Source of the DNA: Desulfobacca acetoxidans DSM 11109
GTDB lineage: Bacteria > Desulfobacterota > Desulfobaccia > Desulfobaccales > Desulfobaccaceae
Reading direction: 5' to 3'
Length of the DNA: 64,000 nt
NCBI RefSeq assembly: GCF_000195295.1
Contig: NC_015388.1
Span: forward strand, 2,976,001-3,040,000
Shown here: one piece after another, positions 3,622-13,244 of the stretch
Position numbering within the stretch: the stretch's first letter is position 1
Layout of the letters: every line of letters starts with the position of its first letter
Translations under genes and position numbers: made by a program
The notes under the pieces: generated by a model
Databases searched by the model: none
Told to the model about the DNA's origin: nothing
What the model saw: the letters and a program-made list of their open reading frames with translations, nothing else

Positions 3622-4674
3622 ATGGCTGATCAGATGTTAGCAGCGGTCCTCCGGGGACCCAAAGATTTAGCGATCACCGAGGTCTCTCGCCCTCTCTGCC
3701 CGAGCGGCGGTCTCCTCATACAAGTGCGCGCCTGCTCGCTCTGCGCCACCGACGTCAAGATGTGGCAGCGGGGACATCGTGACCTGCTGTTGCCTCGCAT
3801 CCTGGGGCATGAGCTCGCCGGAGAAATTGCCGCCGTTTCCGATGATTTATCTGACTTTCAGGTGGGTGACCGGGTGCAGGTGGCTCCGGGATTGCCCTGT
3901 GGCCGCTGCCGCTGGTGTCTACAGGGCGCTCCGAACATGTGCCAGGCTATGCAGATTATCGGTTTTCACCACGACGGCGGTTTGGCCGAGTTCGTCGCCG
4001 TTCCCGCCGCCGGTGTGCACCAGGGGGCGGTATCGCACCTGCCTGACGCTCTAGCCTTTGACCTTGCCGCCCTGGCCGAGCCCTTGGCCTGCTGCCTGAA
4101 CGCCCAGGAACTGGCCAGGGTTGGCATGGGGGACCAGGTTGCCATTTGGGGGGCCGGTCCCCAGGGCTGGCTGCAGGTCCAGGTGGCGCGGTTGCGGGGA
4201 GCTTCCCGGATAATCCTGGTAGAAAATGATCCCGGACGCTTGCAGGATGCAGTCCAAGCCGGGGCCGATCTATTGTTGGACATTTTCCAGGAAGATCCGG
4301 TAACCGCCATTTTGGAGACCACGGCCGGCAAGGGAGTGGAGGTGGTGATTCCAGCCTGTGGCTCTTTGGAGGCTTTTGACTGGGGTTTGGCGGTACTGGC
4401 GAAACGAGGCCGTCTGTGTCTTTACTCGGGTCTGCCCAAGGAGGTAGAAACTCATCCGGTAAACCTCAACCGGTTGCATTATCTGGAAGCTTCTCTGGTA
4501 GGCGCCTACGGCTGCACCTCCCGGCAGAACGCCCTGGCCCTGGAACTCATGGCCAAGGGACGCATCCGCGTTGATCGTCTGATTACCCACCGCCTTCCTC
4601 TAAACCGGGTGGAGGAGGGGTTCGAGCTCGTGCAGAGCCGCCGGGGGCTAAAAGTGGTCATCGAATGTACCTGA
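3622..4674 (+). CDS. Zinc-dependent MDR-family dehydrogenase (threonine/sorbitol dehydrogenase-like)
   Basis: 350 residues from the ATG at 3622, which has AGGTGG four bases upstream; a TTG 24 bases earlier lacks such a site. Medium-chain dehydrogenases of this group oxidise secondary alcohols with NAD(P). The N-terminal half shows the catalytic zinc site (CSLCATD, then GHE) and the structural zinc site GLPCGRCRWCLQGAPNMC with four cysteines. The nucleotide-binding fold follows at GAGPQGWLQVQ, with an acidic residue in VENDPGR favouring NAD. The substrate cannot be told from sequence. It is the first gene after the cobalamin riboswitch and stands 14 bases before the TrpD-like gene, so the two are very likely cotranscribed. 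Confidence 0.85.
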   Translation: MADQMLAAVLRGPKDLAITEVSRPLCPSGGLLIQVRACSLCATDVKMWQRGHRDLLLPRILGHELAGEIAAVSDDLSDFQVGDRVQVAPGLPCGRCRWCLQGAPNMCQAMQIIGFHHDGGLAEFVAVPAAGVHQGAVSHLPDALAFDLAALAEPLACCLNAQELARVGMGDQVAIWGAGPQGWLQVQVARLRGASRIILVENDPGRLQDAVQAGADLLLDIFQEDPVTAILETTAGKGVEVVIPACGSLEAFDWGLAVLAKRGRLCLYSGLPKEVETHPVNLNRLHYLEASLVGAYGCTSRQNALALELMAKGRIRVDRLITHRLPLNRVEEGFELVQSRRGLKVVIECT

Positions 4675-4688
4675 CTCGGAGTTATTTT

Positions 4689-5846
4689 ATGAATAATCCC
4701 AAGAATTATGATGAATTAGAGCTACGCCGCTTTGGCCGGGCCATTACCGAGCTGGCCCAGGGCCAACACCTGAGCCGGGAAGAGACCAAAGAGCTTTACC
4801 GCCAGATTCTCCTGGCCGAGCAGCCAGACCTGCAACAGGGAGCTTTTCTGGCGGCGCACATGGCAAAATCTCCTACCCTGGACGAAATTGCCGGTGCCTG
4901 GGAGGCCCAGATGGATTATGACGTGGAAACCATCGATCCTCCCCTCCCAGGTCCCTGCGCCGATATCGTTGGCACCGGCTCGGATTATCTCAAGACCCTC
5001 AATGCCTCCAGCGGCGCCGCCATCCTGGCGGCGGCGGCCGGAGCCTATGTGGCCAAAAAGGGGGCCCGGGCCGCCACCGGTGTCAGCGGCGCCTCCGATA
5101 TCTTTGAGACCTTCGGAGTCGACCTCAAGGCCCCTTTGTCTCAGGCGGCCCAAGCCCTGACAGCCCACCGCCTCTGTTACATCCCCGGCGAAAGGTTCCT
5201 GCGCTCCGGATGGGGACGTTTGATCGCGGTGATGCGTTTTCGGACCATCTTCAATCTGGCCTGTCCGCTCCTCCTACCCTGCCGCCCTACCCGCTACCTG
5301 GTGATCGGGGCCTATAGCGCTGATTTGGCGCGTCAATTGGTCAATATCTGCCGGGAGATCGGCTTAGCGGGGGCCTTGGGCCTCTACGGCCAGAGCGATC
5401 AGCATGAGCCGGATCAGGGGATGGATGAAGTCTCGGTCTGCGGTCCTACGCTGGTAGTAGAGCTGCGCCATGATCAAATAACCGAATATGTCCTCGAACC
5501 CGAAGACCTGGGTCTGCGGCGATATCCTTATGAAAAAATTGCTGCCCAAGGTGATACTTACCAGAATGCCCTGGCTCTCCTCAAGGTGTTAAGCGCCGGA
5601 ACCAATGGTGCCGCCGCCGACTTTCTGGCCGCCAACGCCGCCGCAGTGCTCTATCTGTTGAATCTGGCTCCATCCTGGCCTGCTGCGGTGGAACAGGCCC
5701 GGCAGACCTTGGCCGCAGGAAAGGCTCTTGACACGTTGCGCTCTCTGGTCGCGGTTCAGCAGGGTAATTCCCGGCATGGAGAAGAAAAACTAAATAAATT
5801 GTTGCACCAGATCAACTCGTCTACGACTCTTATCGCCTGGAATTAG
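4689..5846 (+). CDS. Divergent TrpD-like phosphoribosyltransferase
   Basis: 385 residues from the ATG at 4689 (GGAG eight bases upstream); an in-frame ATG at 4665 overlaps the previous gene and is less likely. The whole length follows the anthranilate phosphoribosyltransferase fold (TrpD/glycosyltransferase family 3). GTGGD becomes GTGSD, the following T-F-N-[IV]-S-T becomes TLNASS, the Mg-PRPP segment GMDEVS is kept, and KHGNR becomes KKGAR. The lost HGN residues contact anthranilate in true TrpD, so another acceptor is likely; this is inference. FNxLGPLxNP is also altered, to FNLACPLLLP. No trp genes are nearby, and the gene follows a dehydrogenase behind a cobalamin riboswitch. The acceptor is unknown. 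Confidence 0.75.
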   Translation: MNNPKNYDELELRRFGRAITELAQGQHLSREETKELYRQILLAEQPDLQQGAFLAAHMAKSPTLDEIAGAWEAQMDYDVETIDPPLPGPCADIVGTGSDYLKTLNASSGAAILAAAAGAYVAKKGARAATGVSGASDIFETFGVDLKAPLSQAAQALTAHRLCYIPGERFLRSGWGRLIAVMRFRTIFNLACPLLLPCRPTRYLVIGAYSADLARQLVNICREIGLAGALGLYGQSDQHEPDQGMDEVSVCGPTLVVELRHDQITEYVLEPEDLGLRRYPYEKIAAQGDTYQNALALLKVLSAGTNGAAADFLAANAAAVLYLLNLAPSWPAAVEQARQTLAAGKALDTLRSLVAVQQGNSRHGEEKLNKLLHQINSSTTLIAWN

Positions 5847-6003: not shown

Positions 6004-7383
6004 ATGGATACGTCATATTCGATCAAGCCCCCCAGTGTTCACCCGCTTCAAGTCCTGGTTATCGATGATGAAAAGAACATCCGCGTGGCGCTCGCGGCTT
6101 ATCTGGAAGGGATGGGCTGCCGGGTCTTGACGGTGGCTACGGCTGGCGCGGCTCTTTCCGCCCTGGAGAGCCAGCCTTTTGATCTTGCCTTTCTGGATCT
6201 CCGGCTCAGGGAGATCAGCGGCCTGGAACTTCTTCCTAAACTCCTGTCAGTCAACCCTCGTCTAGCCGTAGTGATGATTACCGCCTACGCCACCATTGAT
6301 ACCGCCGTGGCAGCCATCAAACGGGGAGCGAGGGACTATCTTCCCAAACCGCTGTCACCGGCTCAGATCAAGCACGTGGTAGATGGGCTGGCCGAACGTC
6401 TCAATCTCTATCGTCAGGTGGAAGAGCTCCAGGCGCATCTCCGTGAAGCCGTCCCGGAGGTGATCTTGGCAACGGCATCCGTCAAGATGCAGGCGACGCT
6501 GGACCTGGTGGAGAAGGTGGCGCCGACCGAGATTTCGGTGCTGCTTCTGGGCGAGAACGGCACCGGCAAAGGAGTTATCGCCCGCTGGCTGCACACCCAA
6601 AGCCGGCGCGCCGGAGGTCCCTTTGTGCTGGTCAGTTGTCCTACCCTTTCCGAGGAGCTCCTGGCCAGTGAGTTGTTTGGTCATGTAAAAGGGGCTTTTA
6701 CTGGCGCCACTCGGGACCGGGAAGGGCGGTTGGAAGCCGCGCACGGGGGAACCTTATTTCTGGATGAAGTGAGTGAGATCTCTTTAGGTTTACAAGCCAA
6801 GCTCCTACGGATGCTCCAAGAAAAGCAGTTCGAACGACTGGGGGAAAATCGCACTCGCCGGGTAGATGTGCGGGTGGTGGCGGCCACCAATCGGAATCTG
6901 GAAGAAGAAGTCAAGGCTGGCCGGTTCCGGGAAGACTTGTTTTTTCGCCTGAACGCCGTACAAATCAGTATCCCGCCGCTTAGAGAGCGCCGGGAGGACA
7001 TCCCGATGCTGGCCCGACGGTTCCTGGATTTTTTTGCCCGCCAGACTAGGCGACCTACCCCCGAACTTTCTTCTTCAGCCCTGAACGCCCTTCTTTCTTA
7101 CTCCTGGCCGGGAAATATTCGGGAACTGCGCAATGTCATGGAGCGGGCCATGATCCTCTGGCCTTCCCAAGTCATTGAGCCGGGGGCTTTCCCAGAGAAC
7201 ATTGCCTCCCAAATATCGGCGGCGCCGGTTTTGGGCGGTGATTATACCCTGGAACGTATCGATCGGGAGCATATCCTCCGAGTCCTGGCGCGGACCACCA
7301 CGTTAGAGGAAGCAGCTCACATTCTCGGCATCGATTCCTCCACCCTCTGGCGCAGACGGAAAAAATACGACGAAGAAAGCTAA
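6004..7383 (+). CDS. Sigma-54-dependent response regulator (NtrC family)
   Basis: 459 residues in three domains. The receiver domain (about 15-125) has the acidic pair Asp21/Asp22, phospho-acceptor Asp65, Thr93 and Lys115. The AAA+ domain has Walker A GENGTGK at 183-189, the sigma-54 contact loop GAFTGA at 230-235 and Walker B LFLDE near 251-255. A C-terminal Fis-type helix-turn-helix contains [18 protein letters not shown]. It should activate sigma-54 promoters when phosphorylated. It precedes the kdpF-kup genes and a histidine kinase at 11391, so it probably replaces the usual OmpR-type KdpE. Pairing with that kinase is inferred from position. Confidence 0.93.
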
Positions 7384-7425
7384 ACGTCCAAGTTCGATTA
7401 GAGTCTTTTACCGCCCAACTACCGC

Positions 7426-7465
7426 ATATTGCAATATCCTCTCCGGGAAATCTTGCATTTTGCAA
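7426..7465 (+). promoter_or_regulatory. Candidate upstream activator sites
   Basis: Two inverted repeats share a TTGCAA-type core: the perfect 12-bp palindrome ATATTGCAATAT at 7426-7437, and TTGCA-TTT-TGCAA at 7453-7465. They lie about 70-105 bases upstream of a possible sigma-54 promoter. This is the spacing expected for dimer sites of an NtrC-type activator such as the gene just upstream. Confidence 0.4.
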
Positions 7466-7529
7466 TTCTCGCCTCCGACTTTCTATTTGTAATCTATTGA
7501 AATAACTTTTCTATTCTTCTTTTCGTTCC

Positions 7530-7546
7530 CGGTCTAATCTTTGCAC
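7530..7546 (+). promoter_or_regulatory. Candidate sigma-54 promoter for the kdpF-kup unit
   Basis: GG at 7531-7532 and GC at 7543-7544 are separated by exactly 10 bases, with TTGCA at the -12 element. The -24 side is weak (CGGTCT instead of TGGCAC). The start of the first small gene lies about 60 bases downstream. Confidence 0.35.
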
Positions 7547-7605: not shown

Positions 7606-7689
7606 ATGCTAGACTTAGCTGTTTTCGGTGGAATTTTTATCTTCTTGATTCTCTCGTGGGGGTATGTGCTGCTGGCTGAGAGGTTGTAG
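7606..7689 (+). CDS. Small hydrophobic peptide ahead of kdpF
   Basis: 27 codons starting with ATG and preceded by AAAGGGAAAG as ribosome-binding site. The peptide is one membrane helix ending in LLAERL. Small peptides with a hydrophobic stretch and a C-terminal ERL-type ending are, in my recollection, common just before kdpF in other bacteria; I cannot verify this here. The TAG stop is ten bases before the kdpF ATG, so the two are cotranscribed and probably coupled. Confidence 0.6.
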   Translation: MLDLAVFGGIFIFLILSWGYVLLAERL

Positions 7690-7698
7690 GAGAACAAC

Positions 7699-7788
7699 AT
7701 GACATGGGAATATCTTATCGGCAGCCTTATTTCCCTGATGCTCCTCATATATTTGCTTTATGCGCTGCTGTGGCCGGAGCATTTTTAA
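7699..7788 (+). CDS. kdpF: KdpF-like small membrane subunit
   Basis: 29 residues, the usual size of KdpF, with AGGAG upstream of the ATG. The sequence is a single transmembrane helix ending in YLLYALLWPEHF, matching the KdpF pattern (Y-L-x-Y-A-L followed by a short acidic tail). KdpF stabilises the KdpABC potassium-pumping ATPase at the inner membrane. Here kdpA and kdpB do not follow; kup starts 12 bases later. The peptide is therefore either a relic or works with Kup. Confidence 0.8.
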   Translation: MTWEYLIGSLISLMLLIYLLYALLWPEHF

Positions 7789-7800
7789 GGAATTGTTCTC

Positions 7801-9765
7801 ATGAGTATTGCTTTCCGTGACGACGAGAAGCCCTCGCAGTCCCCCCATTCCGCCACATCGGCCGGGCGTCTACCTGACATTCAACTTGAAAAGCGAGACC
7901 GGCGTAAAACTCTCGTCATGGCGTTAGGGGCCCTGGGGGTAGTTTACGGCGACATCGGCACCAGCCCTCTGTATGCCATCAAGGAATGCTTTCACGGCTT
8001 CCATGCCATAGAAGTTACCCGAGCCAACATCCTAGGCGTCATGTCCCTGATTTTCTGGTCACTGACCATTGTGGTAACCATCAAGTATGTAACCTTTATT
8101 CTTAAAGCTGACAATGAAGGTGAAGGCGGCATCTATGCCCTGACCGCCCTGTTTTTGCGAAAAGGGGGCAAGCTGGTTTCACTAAAAACGGTCAAATATC
8201 TTTCCCTGCTGGCCATTTTCGGGGCAGCCCTGCTCTATGGCGACGGCCTTATCACTCCGGTCATCTCCGTGCTTTCGGCGGTGGAAGGGTTAAACGTCGC
8301 CACCACGGCGTTCGAAGCTTATGTCTTGCCCATCACCTGCGCTATCCTGATCGGCCTATTTATGATCCAGCGGCAGGGGACGGCGCGCTTGGGCAAGGTA
8401 TTCGGACTCACCATGCTGCTGTGGTTCTTTTCCCTGGCGAGTTTAGGTCTGATGCAGATACTCAGGCGCCCCGAGGTCTTGGTAGCCCTGAACCCCGGCC
8501 ATGCGGTGGCCTTTTTTGCCGCCAACCAGTTGCACGGCATGGTGGTATTGGGAGCTGTGGTGTTGGTCATCACCGGAGGTGAAGCCTTGTATGCCGATCT
8601 GGGACACTTTGGCCGGGGGCCCATCCAACTTTCCTGGCTGACCATTGTCTTTCCGGCGCTCGTGCTCAACTATTTGGGGCAGTGCGCCCTGCTCCTGGAA
8701 AACCCCCAAGCAACTTACCATCCTTTCTATGAGTTGGTCCCCCGGTTCCTGTTGTATCCCATGGTAGTTCTGGCCACGGCGTCCACCGTCATCGCCTCCC
8801 AGGCCATGATTTCCGGAGTCTATTCCCTCACCCAGCAGGCCATCCAGATCGGTTATTTACCCAGGCTCCATATTGTCCACACCTCTGGGGAGACCAAGGG
8901 GCAGATTTATATGCCGTGGGTAAACACCGGGATGTTGATCGGCTGTTTGGGGCTGGCGATCGCTTTCCAGGAATCGAGCCGTTTGGCGGCGGCCTACGGC
9001 ATCGCCGTCACGGGCACCATGGGCATCACCACCGTTATCTACTATTATGTGGCCCGTTATAACTGGAACTGGCCACGGTGGAAAGTACTCCTCCCCGTGG
9101 GGGTTTTCATCTTTTTCGATCTCGCCTATTTCGGCGCCAACATGCTGAAGTTTGTGGATGGCGGCTGGTTTACCGTATCTGTGGCGGTACTGCTGGCCAT
9201 TGTGATGATTACCTGGCGGGACGGCCGGAGTCTCCTGGCTAAGCGCTATGAGGACGCCAGGGTTCCCGTGGAGGTTATCTTGAGAGACATCAAGACCTAC
9301 AAACTGGTCCGCACCCCCAGGACCGGCGCCTTTCTCTCCATTTCCCCCGTGGGGGTCCCCATTACCCTACTGCACCTTCTGAAACACATCGAAGCCCTGC
9401 CCCAGAAGGTGGTCTTGATGTCCATCGTTTCCGCCAATACACCTTTCGTCTCCCGGCAAGAGCGGCTGGTCATCACCGCCTTGGGCCAGGATTTCTACCG
9501 GGTGATAGCAACCTACGGCTTCATGGAGACCCCCAACATGTCGAAAATCATGGAGATCGCCACTGAACAGGGCCTGGAACTGGACGAGTTTTCCACCACT
9601 TTTTACGTGGGCCGGGAAACCCTGATCACCAACGGGGATGGCGGCATGTCTAGCTGGCGCAAAGGACTGTTCGCCTTCCTTTCCAGGAACTCCTGGAACG
9701 TTACCATATATTTCGGCATCCCATCCGACCGCGTGGTGGAACTCGGGGTCCAAGTCAGGCTTTAA
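7801..9765 (+). CDS. kup: Kup/Trk-type low-affinity potassium uptake protein
   Basis: 654 residues, slightly longer than the E. coli protein. Kup imports K+ with protons across the inner membrane. The family signature ALGVVYGDIGTSPLYAIKE stands near residue 44, followed by about twelve hydrophobic segments and a C-terminal cytoplasmic domain of about 150 residues. A polar N-terminal tail of about 35 residues precedes the signature. AAGGA precedes the ATG by about ten bases. The gene sits between kdpF and a kdpC remnant, exactly where kdpA and kdpB would be expected. Confidence 0.95.
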   Translation: MSIAFRDDEKPSQSPHSATSAGRLPDIQLEKRDRRKTLVMALGALGVVYGDIGTSPLYAIKECFHGFHAIEVTRANILGVMSLIFWSLTIVVTIKYVTFILKADNEGEGGIYALTALFLRKGGKLVSLKTVKYLSLLAIFGAALLYGDGLITPVISVLSAVEGLNVATTAFEAYVLPITCAILIGLFMIQRQGTARLGKVFGLTMLLWFFSLASLGLMQILRRPEVLVALNPGHAVAFFAANQLHGMVVLGAVVLVITGGEALYADLGHFGRGPIQLSWLTIVFPALVLNYLGQCALLLENPQATYHPFYELVPRFLLYPMVVLATASTVIASQAMISGVYSLTQQAIQIGYLPRLHIVHTSGETKGQIYMPWVNTGMLIGCLGLAIAFQESSRLAAAYGIAVTGTMGITTVIYYYVARYNWNWPRWKVLLPVGVFIFFDLAYFGANMLKFVDGGWFTVSVAVLLAIVMITWRDGRSLLAKRYEDARVPVEVILRDIKTYKLVRTPRTGAFLSISPVGVPITLLHLLKHIEALPQKVVLMSIVSANTPFVSRQERLVITALGQDFYRVIATYGFMETPNMSKIMEIATEQGLELDEFSTTFYVGRETLITNGDGGMSSWRKGLFAFLSRNSWNVTIYFGIPSDRVVELGVQVRL

Positions 9766-9823
9766 TACTATTAAAATGCTCCTGATTTAAATAACATACC
9801 CCAGCAGTGAGGAGAAGCTTCCA

Positions 9824-10219
9824 ATATTTATGGATAGTTCCCCCCGCACTGCCGCCTGAGGGCATGCGTATATCCCAACCGCTTCGGGTGGCTCCAATTT
9901 AGGCCCCACTTCCCAGAAGCTGCGGGATCGTGCTATAAATGTCTTAGAAGATTTAAAGAAAAACAATCCCGAAGCCGACTTTCCGGTCCCGGCAGAACTG
10001 GTGACGGCCTCCGCCAGCGGCCTGGACCCGCACCTCTCCTTGGCAGGAGCGTTGTGGCAGGTGCCTCGGGTGGCCAAAGCCCGGGGAGTGGCCCCGGAGC
10101 GTCTCACCACCGTGGTGAAAGCAAATCTGGAAGGGAGGACCCTGGGAGTTCTGGGAGAACCCCGGGTAAATGTTCTTCTTTTGAACCTGGCCCTGGATCG
10201 GCAGTTTGGCAGGCCTTGA
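9824..10219 (+). pseudogene. kdpC: kdpC remnant
   Basis: In frame 2 the translation from about 9884 reads SGGSNLGPTSQKL, then PVPAELVTASASGLDPH, QVPRVAKARG and LGVLGEPRVNVLLLNLALD. These are the diagnostic C-terminal motifs of KdpC, the small subunit of the KdpFABC ATPase. Upstream in the same frame, FMDSSPRTAA resembles the KdpC Y-F-x-x-R-P-S-A-A segment and is followed by an in-frame TGA at 9857-9859. The N-terminal membrane helix is missing. Only about 130 codons of homology remain, with a stop inside, so the gene is broken. It ends 13 bases before the KdpD-like gene. Confidence 0.8.
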
Positions 10220-10232
10220 CTTGGTTTAAACT

Positions 10233-11384
10233 ATGAACCCCACTACCAACCGCGCCCAAGACTTCCTGGACCTGCTGGAACGCGCCAAGCGCGGCCGGCT
10301 GAAAATCTACCTCGGCTTTGCCGCCGGCGTGGGCAAGACCGTGCGCATGCTCAAAGAGGCCCATGCCCTGAAGCTGCGCGGCGTGGATGTGGTCCTGGCC
10401 TACATCGAGCCCCATGGCCGGGCGGAAACCGCAGAGTTGATCGGCGATCTCGAGGTCATTCCCCGGAAGCAGTTTGTCTATCGGGGCATCACGGTGGAAG
10501 AGATGGACCTGGACGCGGTCTTGGCCCGGCGCCCGGAAATTGCCATCGTGGACGAGGTGGCGCATACCAATGTACCCTTGTGCCGCCACCGGAAACGCTA
10601 TCAGGATATTCTGGAAATTACCGAGGCAGGCATCAACGTCATTTGCGCTTTTAATATCCAACACCTGGAGAGTCTCAACGACCTCATCGAACGAGTAACC
10701 GGGGTGGTGGTCCGGGAAACTATCCCCGATACCTTTGTTAAGGAAGCCGATCAGGTGGTCACCGTGGATCTGTCGGTGGACGACCTCATGGAACGCCTGA
10801 AGAGCGGTAAAATCTACACCCGGGACAAGATTCCCTGGGCCTTGGAGCATTTTTTCCGGATCGCCAACCTCTCTACGTTGCGGGAACTGGCGCTCCTGGA
10901 GGTGGCCGAGAGCCTGGGCCGGCGGCAGCCCTCCGGTCCTGAGGAATTGAAACTTCAAGACAGAGTCTCCCTTAGGACCTTGGGACGGGTCATGGTCTGC
11001 ATGGCTTCGGCCTCTCCCCGGGCCAAAACGCTTCTCCGGAAAGGCTCCCGCATGGCCGGTCGTCTCAATACCCATTGGTTTGTGGTGTATGTGGAAACCC
11101 CAGGCGAAGCCCCAACCCAGATCGAAGCCGAAACCCAACGCCATCTTTTGGAAAACTTTCAAAAGGCCCGGGAATTGGGCGCCGAGGTTATCCGCCTCCA
11201 GGCCAAGGACCCGGTTCCGGCCATCCTCGACTTTGCCCGTTCCCATGGCGTCGGCCACATTGTCATCGGCCGCTCCCAGCAACCCTGGTGGCGAAAACTC
11301 CTGGGCCGTTCCGTGTCTCACCGGATCATCGATGAGGCTGCGGGGTTTGATGTCCATGTTATCTCTTTCGAAGAGGAGGAGTAA
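10233..11384 (+). CDS. KdpD-type sensor protein without kinase domain (KdpD + Usp domains)
   Basis: 383 residues. The N-terminal KdpD domain (about 20-230) has Walker A GFAAGVGKT at 28-36 and the family DEVAHTN at 107-113. A universal-stress-type domain follows from about 250 to the end. Full KdpD continues with four membrane helices and a histidine kinase; these are absent, and the protein stops where the membrane part should begin. The next gene, six bases downstream, is a separate histidine kinase. The pair therefore looks like a KdpD split in two, or a soluble KdpD sensor working with an unrelated kinase. It could sense K+ or cyclic-di-AMP through the Usp domain, as known for KdpD; this is inference. 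Confidence 0.9.
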   Translation: MNPTTNRAQDFLDLLERAKRGRLKIYLGFAAGVGKTVRMLKEAHALKLRGVDVVLAYIEPHGRAETAELIGDLEVIPRKQFVYRGITVEEMDLDAVLARRPEIAIVDEVAHTNVPLCRHRKRYQDILEITEAGINVICAFNIQHLESLNDLIERVTGVVVRETIPDTFVKEADQVVTVDLSVDDLMERLKSGKIYTRDKIPWALEHFFRIANLSTLRELALLEVAESLGRRQPSGPEELKLQDRVSLRTLGRVMVCMASASPRAKTLLRKGSRMAGRLNTHWFVVYVETPGEAPTQIEAETQRHLLENFQKARELGAEVIRLQAKDPVPAILDFARSHGVGHIVIGRSQQPWWRKLLGRSVSHRIIDEAAGFDVHVISFEEEE

Positions 11385-11390
11385 GACGGC

Positions 11391-13244
11391 ATGCTCCTGA
11401 AAACCAAACTCCTGTTAGCCCAGGTTCCCCTGGCCCTGGCCCTCTTGGTGCTGGGCATCGTTGCCGTCGCCACCATCGGCCAGTTGGGGTCCCATTCGGA
11501 AAGAATCCTCCACGACAACTATCGGAGCGTCCTGGCCGCCCAGCGCATGAAGGAAGCCATCGAGCGTATGGATTCAGCCGCTCTCTTTATCGCTTTGGGA
11601 CGGCGGGAGCAGGGAAAGCAATTGGCCCTCAGCAACCGCAAGGTTTTTGAAGAAGAATTGGCGGTGCAAGTAAGGAATATCACCGAAAAAGGGGAACGAG
11701 AGGTCTCTAACGCCTTGGCCGCCCGCTGGCGGGATTACTTGACAGCCTATGAGAACTTCATCCAGGAAACGTCAAACGAGGCTTTGAGGGATCGTGTTTT
11801 CTCCGATCTTTTCCCTAAATTTCTTGCCATCAAAGAGGGTGCGGACCATATTCTCTCCCTGAACCAGGATGCCATGATCAGAAAAAGCGATGAAGTGCGC
11901 CAGGTTTCCCAGCGCCTGGAGAGATTGATTACCTTCGCCGCCCTGGTCGCCGCCCTGGCTGGCATTTTTGCCTCTAGCGTATTGACCACCAGGATTATCA
12001 GACCCCTTTCGGTTCTGACTCAAACCGCTCGCCGGATCAAGGAGGGTGATCTGGCGGTCCGGGCCCGGGTTGAGGGGTCTGATGAGATTGCCCTGTTAGC
12101 CCAGGAATTCAACACGATGACCGACAGCCTGGATCGTTATCGCCGGAGTTCTTTAGGGGAATTGCTCCAGGCCCAACAAGCTTCCCAGGCTGCCATCGAC
12201 AATCTTCCCGATCCGGTTTTGGCTACCAACCTGGAGGGAAAAATTCTGGGCGCCAACCGTATTGCCGAAGCGTGGTTTGGCCCGATTTTATCCGGCTCTT
12301 GTGAGGAAACCGGGCAAAATCCGGAACCCGTATTGACTACCGCCATCAAGAAGGCCAGAAAATATGTGCTGGCCGGTAAGGGGGCGTATCGGCCTTCGGA
12401 CCTGGAAGATGCGGTAAACATACATGCACCCGAGGGGGAACGCTCGGTGCTGCCCCTGGCTGTACCGGTGTATGATCAAAACGGCAACTTGGCCAGCGTC
12501 AGTCTGATTCTCCGGGACGTTACTCCCCAGAGCAAAATGGATGCCATGAGCAAAAGCCTGGTCGCTACTTTTGCCCATGAATTCCGGACGCCCTTGACTT
12601 CGTTACATCTGGCCATTCACATTTTGCTGGATCAATTGGCCGGTGCGATGACGGAAAAGCAGCTTGACCTGATTTATGCTGCCCGGGAGGATTGTGAACG
12701 GCTGCAAAACCTAGTGGATGACATCCTGAATCTGGTCCGCCTCCAATCCGGCAAGATTGAACTGCGGCGGGTGGTGATCCGGATTTTCTCCATCATCAAG
12801 AACATTATCGACCAGCACCGCCTTCTAGCCGAGGAGCAGGGACTTGATCTGGCCTGCGTCTATCCTCCTTTTGATGAAGAGGTCTTTGCCGATCCCGAGC
12901 GTTTGGAACTGGTTTTTGCCAATTTGATCACTAATGCCATCCGACATACGCCAGCCGGCGGCTCCATCGAAATCCGGGTCCTTCCTGAAAAAGAGTTCCT
13001 ACGGATTGAAATAAAAGATACCGGTGAAGGCATTCCGCTGGAATATCAGTCCCAGATCTTCGAAAAGTATTTTCAGGTTTCCGGTAGTAGCTGGAAAGGT
13101 GTTGGCTTGGGTCTGGCCCTGGCCAAAAATATCATTGCAGCCCATGGTGGAGAAATAGGTCTTTCAAGCCAATCGGGCCAGGGAAGCACATTTTGGTTTA
13201 CCCTCCCAAGACTGGAGAACAAGCCGATGGATAATGGCTTGTGA
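11391..13244 (+). CDS. Sensor histidine kinase (HAMP-PAS-HisKA-HATPase)
   Basis: 617 residues. Order: a membrane helix near 8-30, a helical periplasmic sensor domain to about 180, a second helix near 183-203, HAMP to about 255, a PAS-like domain about 262-385, a dimerisation domain with the phospho-acceptor His396 in AHEFRTPLTSL, and an ATPase domain with N box NLITNAIRHT, DTGEGIP and GVGLGLALAK. It starts six bases after the KdpD-like gene, so the two are one unit. Its likely partner is the NtrC-type regulator at 6004, since no other regulator gene is present here. The sensed signal cannot be read from the sequence. Confidence 0.93.
   Translation: MLLKTKLLLAQVPLALALLVLGIVAVATIGQLGSHSERILHDNYRSVLAAQRMKEAIERMDSAALFIALGRREQGKQLALSNRKVFEEELAVQVRNITEKGEREVSNALAARWRDYLTAYENFIQETSNEALRDRVFSDLFPKFLAIKEGADHILSLNQDAMIRKSDEVRQVSQRLERLITFAALVAALAGIFASSVLTTRIIRPLSVLTQTARRIKEGDLAVRARVEGSDEIALLAQEFNTMTDSLDRYRRSSLGELLQAQQASQAAIDNLPDPVLATNLEGKILGANRIAEAWFGPILSGSCEETGQNPEPVLTTAIKKARKYVLAGKGAYRPSDLEDAVNIHAPEGERSVLPLAVPVYDQNGNLASVSLILRDVTPQSKMDAMSKSLVATFAHEFRTPLTSLHLAIHILLDQLAGAMTEKQLDLIYAAREDCERLQNLVDDILNLVRLQSGKIELRRVVIRIFSIIKNIIDQHRLLAEEQGLDLACVYPPFDEEVFADPERLELVFANLITNAIRHTPAGGSIEIRVLPEKEFLRIEIKDTGEGIPLEYQSQIFEKYFQVSGSSWKGVGLGLALAKNIIAAHGGEIGLSSQSGQGSTFWFTLPRLENKPMDNGL

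Follow-up and report, generated by a model that had tools for sequence, protein, structure and literature searches.

The kdpFABC operon of Desulfovibrio vulgaris is a target of its own sigma-54 regulator, DVU3334, the gene of which lies next to that for a split KdpD (PMC3333781, PMC4641369). Inhibition of KdpB has been attributed to the N-terminal domain of KdpD, reportedly a serine kinase that needs its Walker motifs (PMC11018627). Here we describe a kdp locus of Desulfobacca acetoxidans DSM 11109 in which the gene kup occupies the slot of kdpA, kdpB, and the 5′ third of kdpC. The window analyzed is a stretch of 64,000 nucleotides (positions 2976001–3040000) of the closed, single-contig genome of 3,282,536 bp. 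As judged from the sequence, we put the probability at roughly 80% that kup took over this slot while the control of the operon was kept, and that kup is now most likely under the kdp promoter.

The + strand of the locus carries, in this order, an NtrC-type regulator, a small open reading frame (sORF) of 27 aa, kdpF, kup, a kdpC remnant, a short KdpD, and a histidine kinase. The kup gene (7801–9765) is complete and encodes 654 aa that match PF02705 (601.7 bits, positions 2–452 of 454), PF22776 (positions 1–151 of 151), and TIGR00794 (551 bits, cut-off 539.6). Its start lies 12 bp after the stop of kdpF (7699–7788), an intact gene for 29 aa (MTWEYLIGSLISLMLLIYLLYALLWPEHF) that scores above the cut-offs of PF09604 and TIGR02115 (36.7 bits, cut-off 26.85). 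Downstream of kup, the 9824–10219 frame includes the 5′-truncated kdpC remnant (~9842–10219), which covers the C-terminal two thirds of KdpC only (PF02669 positions 64–181 of 182; residues 69–194 of a 194-aa relative). The N-terminal helix is absent, and an in-frame TGA at 9857–9859 replaces a Gly codon of relatives. The possibility that this frame encodes an unrelated protein is ruled out by its match to KdpC (E 8e-39).

The short KdpD (10233–11384) consists of a KdpD domain (PF02702, 299 bits) with intact Walker A (GFAAGVGKT) and Walker B (VDEVAHTN) motifs and a Usp domain (PF00582), the only two Pfam matches, and has no kinase domain. The best NCBIfam model, NF038185 (‘KdpD-like non-kinase’), gives 361 bits, under its cut-off of 550. 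All domains are present both in the membrane sensor histidine kinase (11391–13244; HAMP, PAS, HisKA, and HATPase by Pfam) and in the sigma-54-dependent response regulator (6004–7383), which contains a receiver domain (PF00072), an AAA+ domain with the GAFTGA motif (PF00158), and a Fis-type helix-turn-helix (PF02954).

The pump genes are missing from the whole genome. No match to PF03814 (KdpA) and no KdpB ortholog were found genome-wide, which rules out that kdpA and kdpB have moved elsewhere. The best KdpB-like matches, at other loci, reach at most ~29% identity along most of their length, as expected for the distant P-type ATPases that they are. A second KdpC is absent from the rest of the genome, and no kdpA or kdpB debris is present in the window. 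Of the K+-transporting ATPase KdpFABC, the genome thus retains KdpF and lacks KdpA, KdpB, and an intact KdpC. These results bear out what a sequence-only reading of the window had proposed for its gene content, namely an intact kdpF, a truncated kdpC with a TGA at 9857, a KdpD-type gene behind it, and kup in place of the absent kdpA and kdpB; the frame at 9824–10219, on which that reading depended, is a true KdpC.

The odd structure of the locus is the sole point in favor of an assembly artefact that fused kup and kdp fragments. This is extremely improbable, as the genome is a single finished contig published with 313x Illumina and 37.5x pyrosequence coverage (PMC3156406), kdpAB are missing genome-wide, and the second kup of the genome encodes a protein only 68% identical to the Kup of the window, so that repeats are not the cause.

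Among 59 related genomes, the intact kdp operon is found in one genus (g6) of the same taxonomic order as D. acetoxidans. A single contig of G027 (L072) carries the regulator, a TPR-like open reading frame, the sORF, kdpF, kdpA, kdpB, kdpC, and the short KdpD, and overlapping parts of the intact operon are found in G014 (L074, L088), G019 (L070), G022 (L071), and G028 (L073). The kup genes of these genomes are at other loci, none of them in the kdpAB slot. Identity to the window amounts to 82–90% for the short KdpD, 62–76% for the kinase, 75–76% for the regulator (G014, G027), and 70–75% for the kdpC tail; G019 has the closest short KdpD (90%) and, behind its intact kdp genes, a kinase that is 76% identical. 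Since the relatives have kdpA-kdpB-kdpC in the slot, kup replaced kdpA, kdpB, and the 5′ part of kdpC in place. The replacement in situ proposed by the sequence-only reading thus withstood the comparison that had been set beforehand as its test, an intact kdpFABC between regulator and short KdpD being present in G027 and overlapping parts of it in the other four genomes.

A wider scan, of 84,980 species genomes, turned up a related short KdpD at 42 loci. In 36 of these, kdpA, kdpB, and/or kdpC adjoin it; four of the remaining six have less than 800 bp of contig before the short KdpD, and two (L159, L165) lack kdpA, kdpB, and kdpC in 1.6 and 10 kb. Within the DNA compared, kup is beside the short KdpD in none of the 42 loci. 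We also compared the coordinates of KdpD and Kup across 395 genomes of the phylum. The order that would have spoken against a replacement, a stable kdpF-kup-kdpC with intact kdpC, was seen neither in the 42 loci nor in these 395 genomes.

Homology to the kdpF region of L074 extends a few bases past the stop codon of kdpF and then breaks off. This puts the 5′ breakpoint near 7790, just past that stop codon and the AGG behind it; its 3′ counterpart lies near 9842, at about codon 69 of the 194 codons of kdpC in a relative. In a two-step route to this structure, kup would have joined a complete kdp operon, from which kdpA, kdpB, and half of kdpC would later have been lost by deletion. The order kup-kdpA-kdpB-kdpC-KdpD, all in one direction, does exist in G298 (L121, 4312–8001), where kup lies ~140 bp before kdpA like the first gene of a kdp operon, a conceivable intermediate. 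However, the Kup of G298 is only 58% identical to that of the window, kdpF was not detected at its kdp locus, and no intermediate is known in close relatives. We regard this route as possible but rather unlikely; its end state and function would be the same as for a direct substitution, so that it is a rival for the route only.

The TPR-like protein of G027 (L072, ~1085–1564) and G014 (L074), which is secreted and ~150 aa long, is encoded between the sigma-54 promoter and the sORF and is missing in the window. In several genomes, KdpC is found in two pieces within one frame of ~350 aa (L011 and L012 of G033, L125 of G312; also G069, G172, G213, and G241); the pieces match profile positions 2–100 and 99–181, ~400 bp apart, which looks like a large internal insertion.

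The 222 bp between the regulator and the sORF form the control region. They contain an enhancer-like site, CTTGCATTTTGCAAT (7452–7466), with a weaker copy, CCGCATATTGCAA, ~31 bp upstream (together 7422–7466), and a sigma-54-like promoter, CGGTCTAATCTTTGCA (7530–7545). The palindromic site TTGCATTTTGCAA starts 78 bp before this promoter, compared with 76 bp in the intact loci L072 and L074, the promoters of which read TGGCCCCTTCCTTGCA and TGGCTTGCCCTTTGCA, respectively. The sequence CTTGCATTTTGCAA (7452–7465) is found among 126 loci only in L072, L074, and the copy of the window itself. Chance alone would produce 0.05 occurrences of TTGCA-N3-TGCAA in a stretch as long as the window. Of 18 further loci inspected, 9 have this core ahead of kdpF, usually at a distance of 210–272 bp. 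The combined pattern of site and promoter, composed after seeing the window, occurs once in the genome. A second candidate promoter near the sORF, TGGAATCGAATTGCA, is excluded by its GG-N9-GC spacing.

These elements indicate that the control region of the kdp operon is retained at the kup locus. The sequence-only reading had stated that the small subunit and the sensory module were kept, and both were, kdpF as a sequence, but the retention is wider, as it includes the enhancer-like site and the sigma-54-like promoter. As for DVU3334, a GAFTGA regulator is encoded beside the operon, with a candidate enhancer and promoter recognized solely by sequence and conserved spacing; by analogy, the regulator probably binds the TTGCA-N3-TGCAA motif. 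With this site, the promoter, the regulator, the short KdpD, and the kinase all retained, the kdp promoter most likely drives kup. The gap of just 12 bp that separates kup from the stop of kdpF likewise makes an upstream promoter likely for kup.

The surviving genes could alternatively reflect passive decay, in which kup would have entered an operon that had already lost kdpAB and was degenerating, without a functional link to the sensor, the genes of which would be vanishing. kdpC is already a pseudogene, the TPR-like gene behind the promoter of G014 and G027 has been lost as well, and if the swap is recent, intact sensor genes prove little. Nevertheless, kup lies on the same strand 12 bp past kdpF, behind an intact and correctly spaced enhancer and promoter, and the lack of kdpAB debris is as expected for a single replacement rather than gradual decay. 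We therefore consider passive decay unlikely.

The swap appears to be recent, because the 119 codons of the kdpC remnant are interrupted by a single stop and by no frameshift, and their codon pattern is like that of intact kdpC (codon-position rate ratio 0.34, compared with 0.32 for kdpC of G019). The ratio of the short KdpD is 0.08, indicating strong constraint. Some observations weigh against retained control of a substituted transporter. The sensor genes may owe their constraint to the time before the swap, and the window promoter has CGG where the consensus is TGG. Furthermore, the 76 bp between kup and kdpC (9766–9841) gave marginal matches only to any source, and Kup may not do the job of the pump here.

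In a tree of the short KdpD together with the kinase, the window pairs with G019 with a support of 100/100. G019 belongs to another family than the window, and its genus-mates fall outside this pair. kdpC and the short KdpD are absent from the other searched genomes of the genus and family of the window. The Kup of the window is placed among Kups of the sister family. The second Kup groups with the orthologs of its own genus, which rules out that the kup of the window is a copy of it. The G019 pairing, the absence of kdp from genus and family, and the Kup placement suggest that the locus moved horizontally. G019 is a metagenome bin, and its 8.9-kb kdp contig may be misbinned, in which case the intact operon would be in a nearer relative. 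Nothing stands out in the base composition of the locus. Next to it, a TrpD-like (anthranilate phosphoribosyltransferase-like) gene (4665–5846) has best matches in same-genus genomes that are only 33–34% identical, and it is therefore unusable as a synteny marker for the insertion site.

The sORF (7606–7689) directly precedes kdpF and encodes a predicted small membrane protein with 48–56% identity in G027 and G014. Similar reading frames, ranging from Myxococcota to Riflebacteria, directly precede kdpF at 17 of the 18 further kdp loci inspected (L133, L135–L137, L140–L143, L145, L156, L161–L163, L169, L124, L126, and L074), often with the pattern M-x-D ... FF ... Y ... C/E-x-L. No Pfam or NCBIfam model matches it, and a small protein associated with Kdp may have gone unnoticed here. 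The intact frames of kdpF and the sORF despite the loss of kdpAB would fit a role as working subunits or regulators of Kup, and in mycobacteria, KdpF has been investigated as a membrane peptide with a regulatory role (PMC3618439). However, both genes are too short for a selection test, their survival is expected without selection after a recent swap, and kdpF is not seen in the clusters of KdpD-like gene, kinase, and Kup described below. Such a role is very unlikely, an association of KdpF with Kup is not supported, and both proteins are probably leftovers.

Besides the window, five of the 395 genomes carry KdpD and Kup within ~10 kb (G114, G142, G123, G223, and G298). An independent cluster, in which a divergent gene for a short-KdpD-like protein adjoins those for a kinase and Kup, is found in G114, G142, and G411, all from a single genus of family f16; the contig of G414 ends after the KdpD-like gene and the kinase (loci L119, L120, L184, and L185; Kup in three). 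A 60% identical regulator is present in G114 and G411. TTGCA-N3-TGCAA lies ~240–335 bp before the KdpD-like match in three of the four loci (G114, G411, G414), with a second weaker site 30 bp away in G411 and G414, and G142 has one-mismatch sites only. Both Walker motifs are lost in all four KdpD-like proteins. As the serine-kinase activity on KdpB needs these motifs, their loss fits a protein without KdpB as partner. A different kup type in genus g6 (L081, L082; G022, G028) is followed by a histidine kinase ~31% identical to that of the window and then by a short response regulator, so that a pairing of Kup with a two-component system of its own may be common among these genomes.

We tentatively propose, at slightly less than even odds, that kdp-type sensor modules have repeatedly been captured by Kup, recently and in place in D. 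acetoxidans, and earlier, with loss of the Walker motifs, in f16. If so, Kup would be induced by K+ starvation in these bacteria, and signaling by the KdpD/Usp scaffold would be separable from KdpB phosphorylation.

For D. acetoxidans, we favor the following model. The ancestral operon comprised the regulator, the enhancer, the sigma-54 promoter, the sORF, kdpFABC, the short KdpD, and the histidine kinase, and, as the comparison with relatives shows, a complete kup substituted for kdpA, kdpB, and the 5′ third of kdpC. At low K+, as judged by homology, the kinase together with the short KdpD would phosphorylate the regulator, which would then bind TTGCA-N3-TGCAA and activate sigma-54 polymerase for kup transcription. 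An ATP-driven high-affinity pump would thus have been traded for a Kup carrier with starvation control retained, and Kup is probably induced by K+ limitation. The serine-kinase activity of KdpD directed at KdpB would be left without a target in this genome. The model implies that uptake by Kup need not be constitutive and can be induced by starvation. The locus bears the clear mark of an exchange of the transporter that left the control circuit in place, and its intact relatives allow comparison. A genome that keeps the KdpD N-terminal domain after KdpB loss, together with an f16 lineage without the kinase motifs, offers a natural test of which KdpD function is needed for signaling.

A literature search, which covered few subscription journals, returned no paper on kup inside a kdp operon; what is new here is a kdp control region kept at the locus of a swapped transporter, as the conserved elements indicate. 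In operons with a split KdpD and a sigma-54 regulator (D. vulgaris DVU3334–3339; G014, G019, G022, G027, G028), homologous regulator, enhancer–promoter, sORF, kdpF, short KdpD, and kinase follow in the same order, whereas the window has kup in place of kdpA, kdpB, and 5′ kdpC. Its product is a full-length member of the HAK/KUP/KT family (TC 2.A.72), above the TIGR00794 and PF02705 cut-offs; its gene, unlike the other kup of this genome, stands in a kdp regulatory operon. In Deinococcus radiodurans and cyanobacteria, the short KdpD (N-KdpD) likewise comprises KdpD and Usp only, with a separate kinase gene (PMC5716572), but serves an intact KdpABC, while KdpA and KdpB are absent here. The f16 clusters resemble the window in having Kup beside a homologous short-KdpD/kinase pair (G114, G142, G411) and, in G114 and G411, the related regulator and the TTGCA-N3-TGCAA site. 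They differ from it in their gene order (KdpD-like gene, kinase, Kup), a convergent regulator, the loss of Walker A and B, and the absence of kdpF and of a kdpC remnant.

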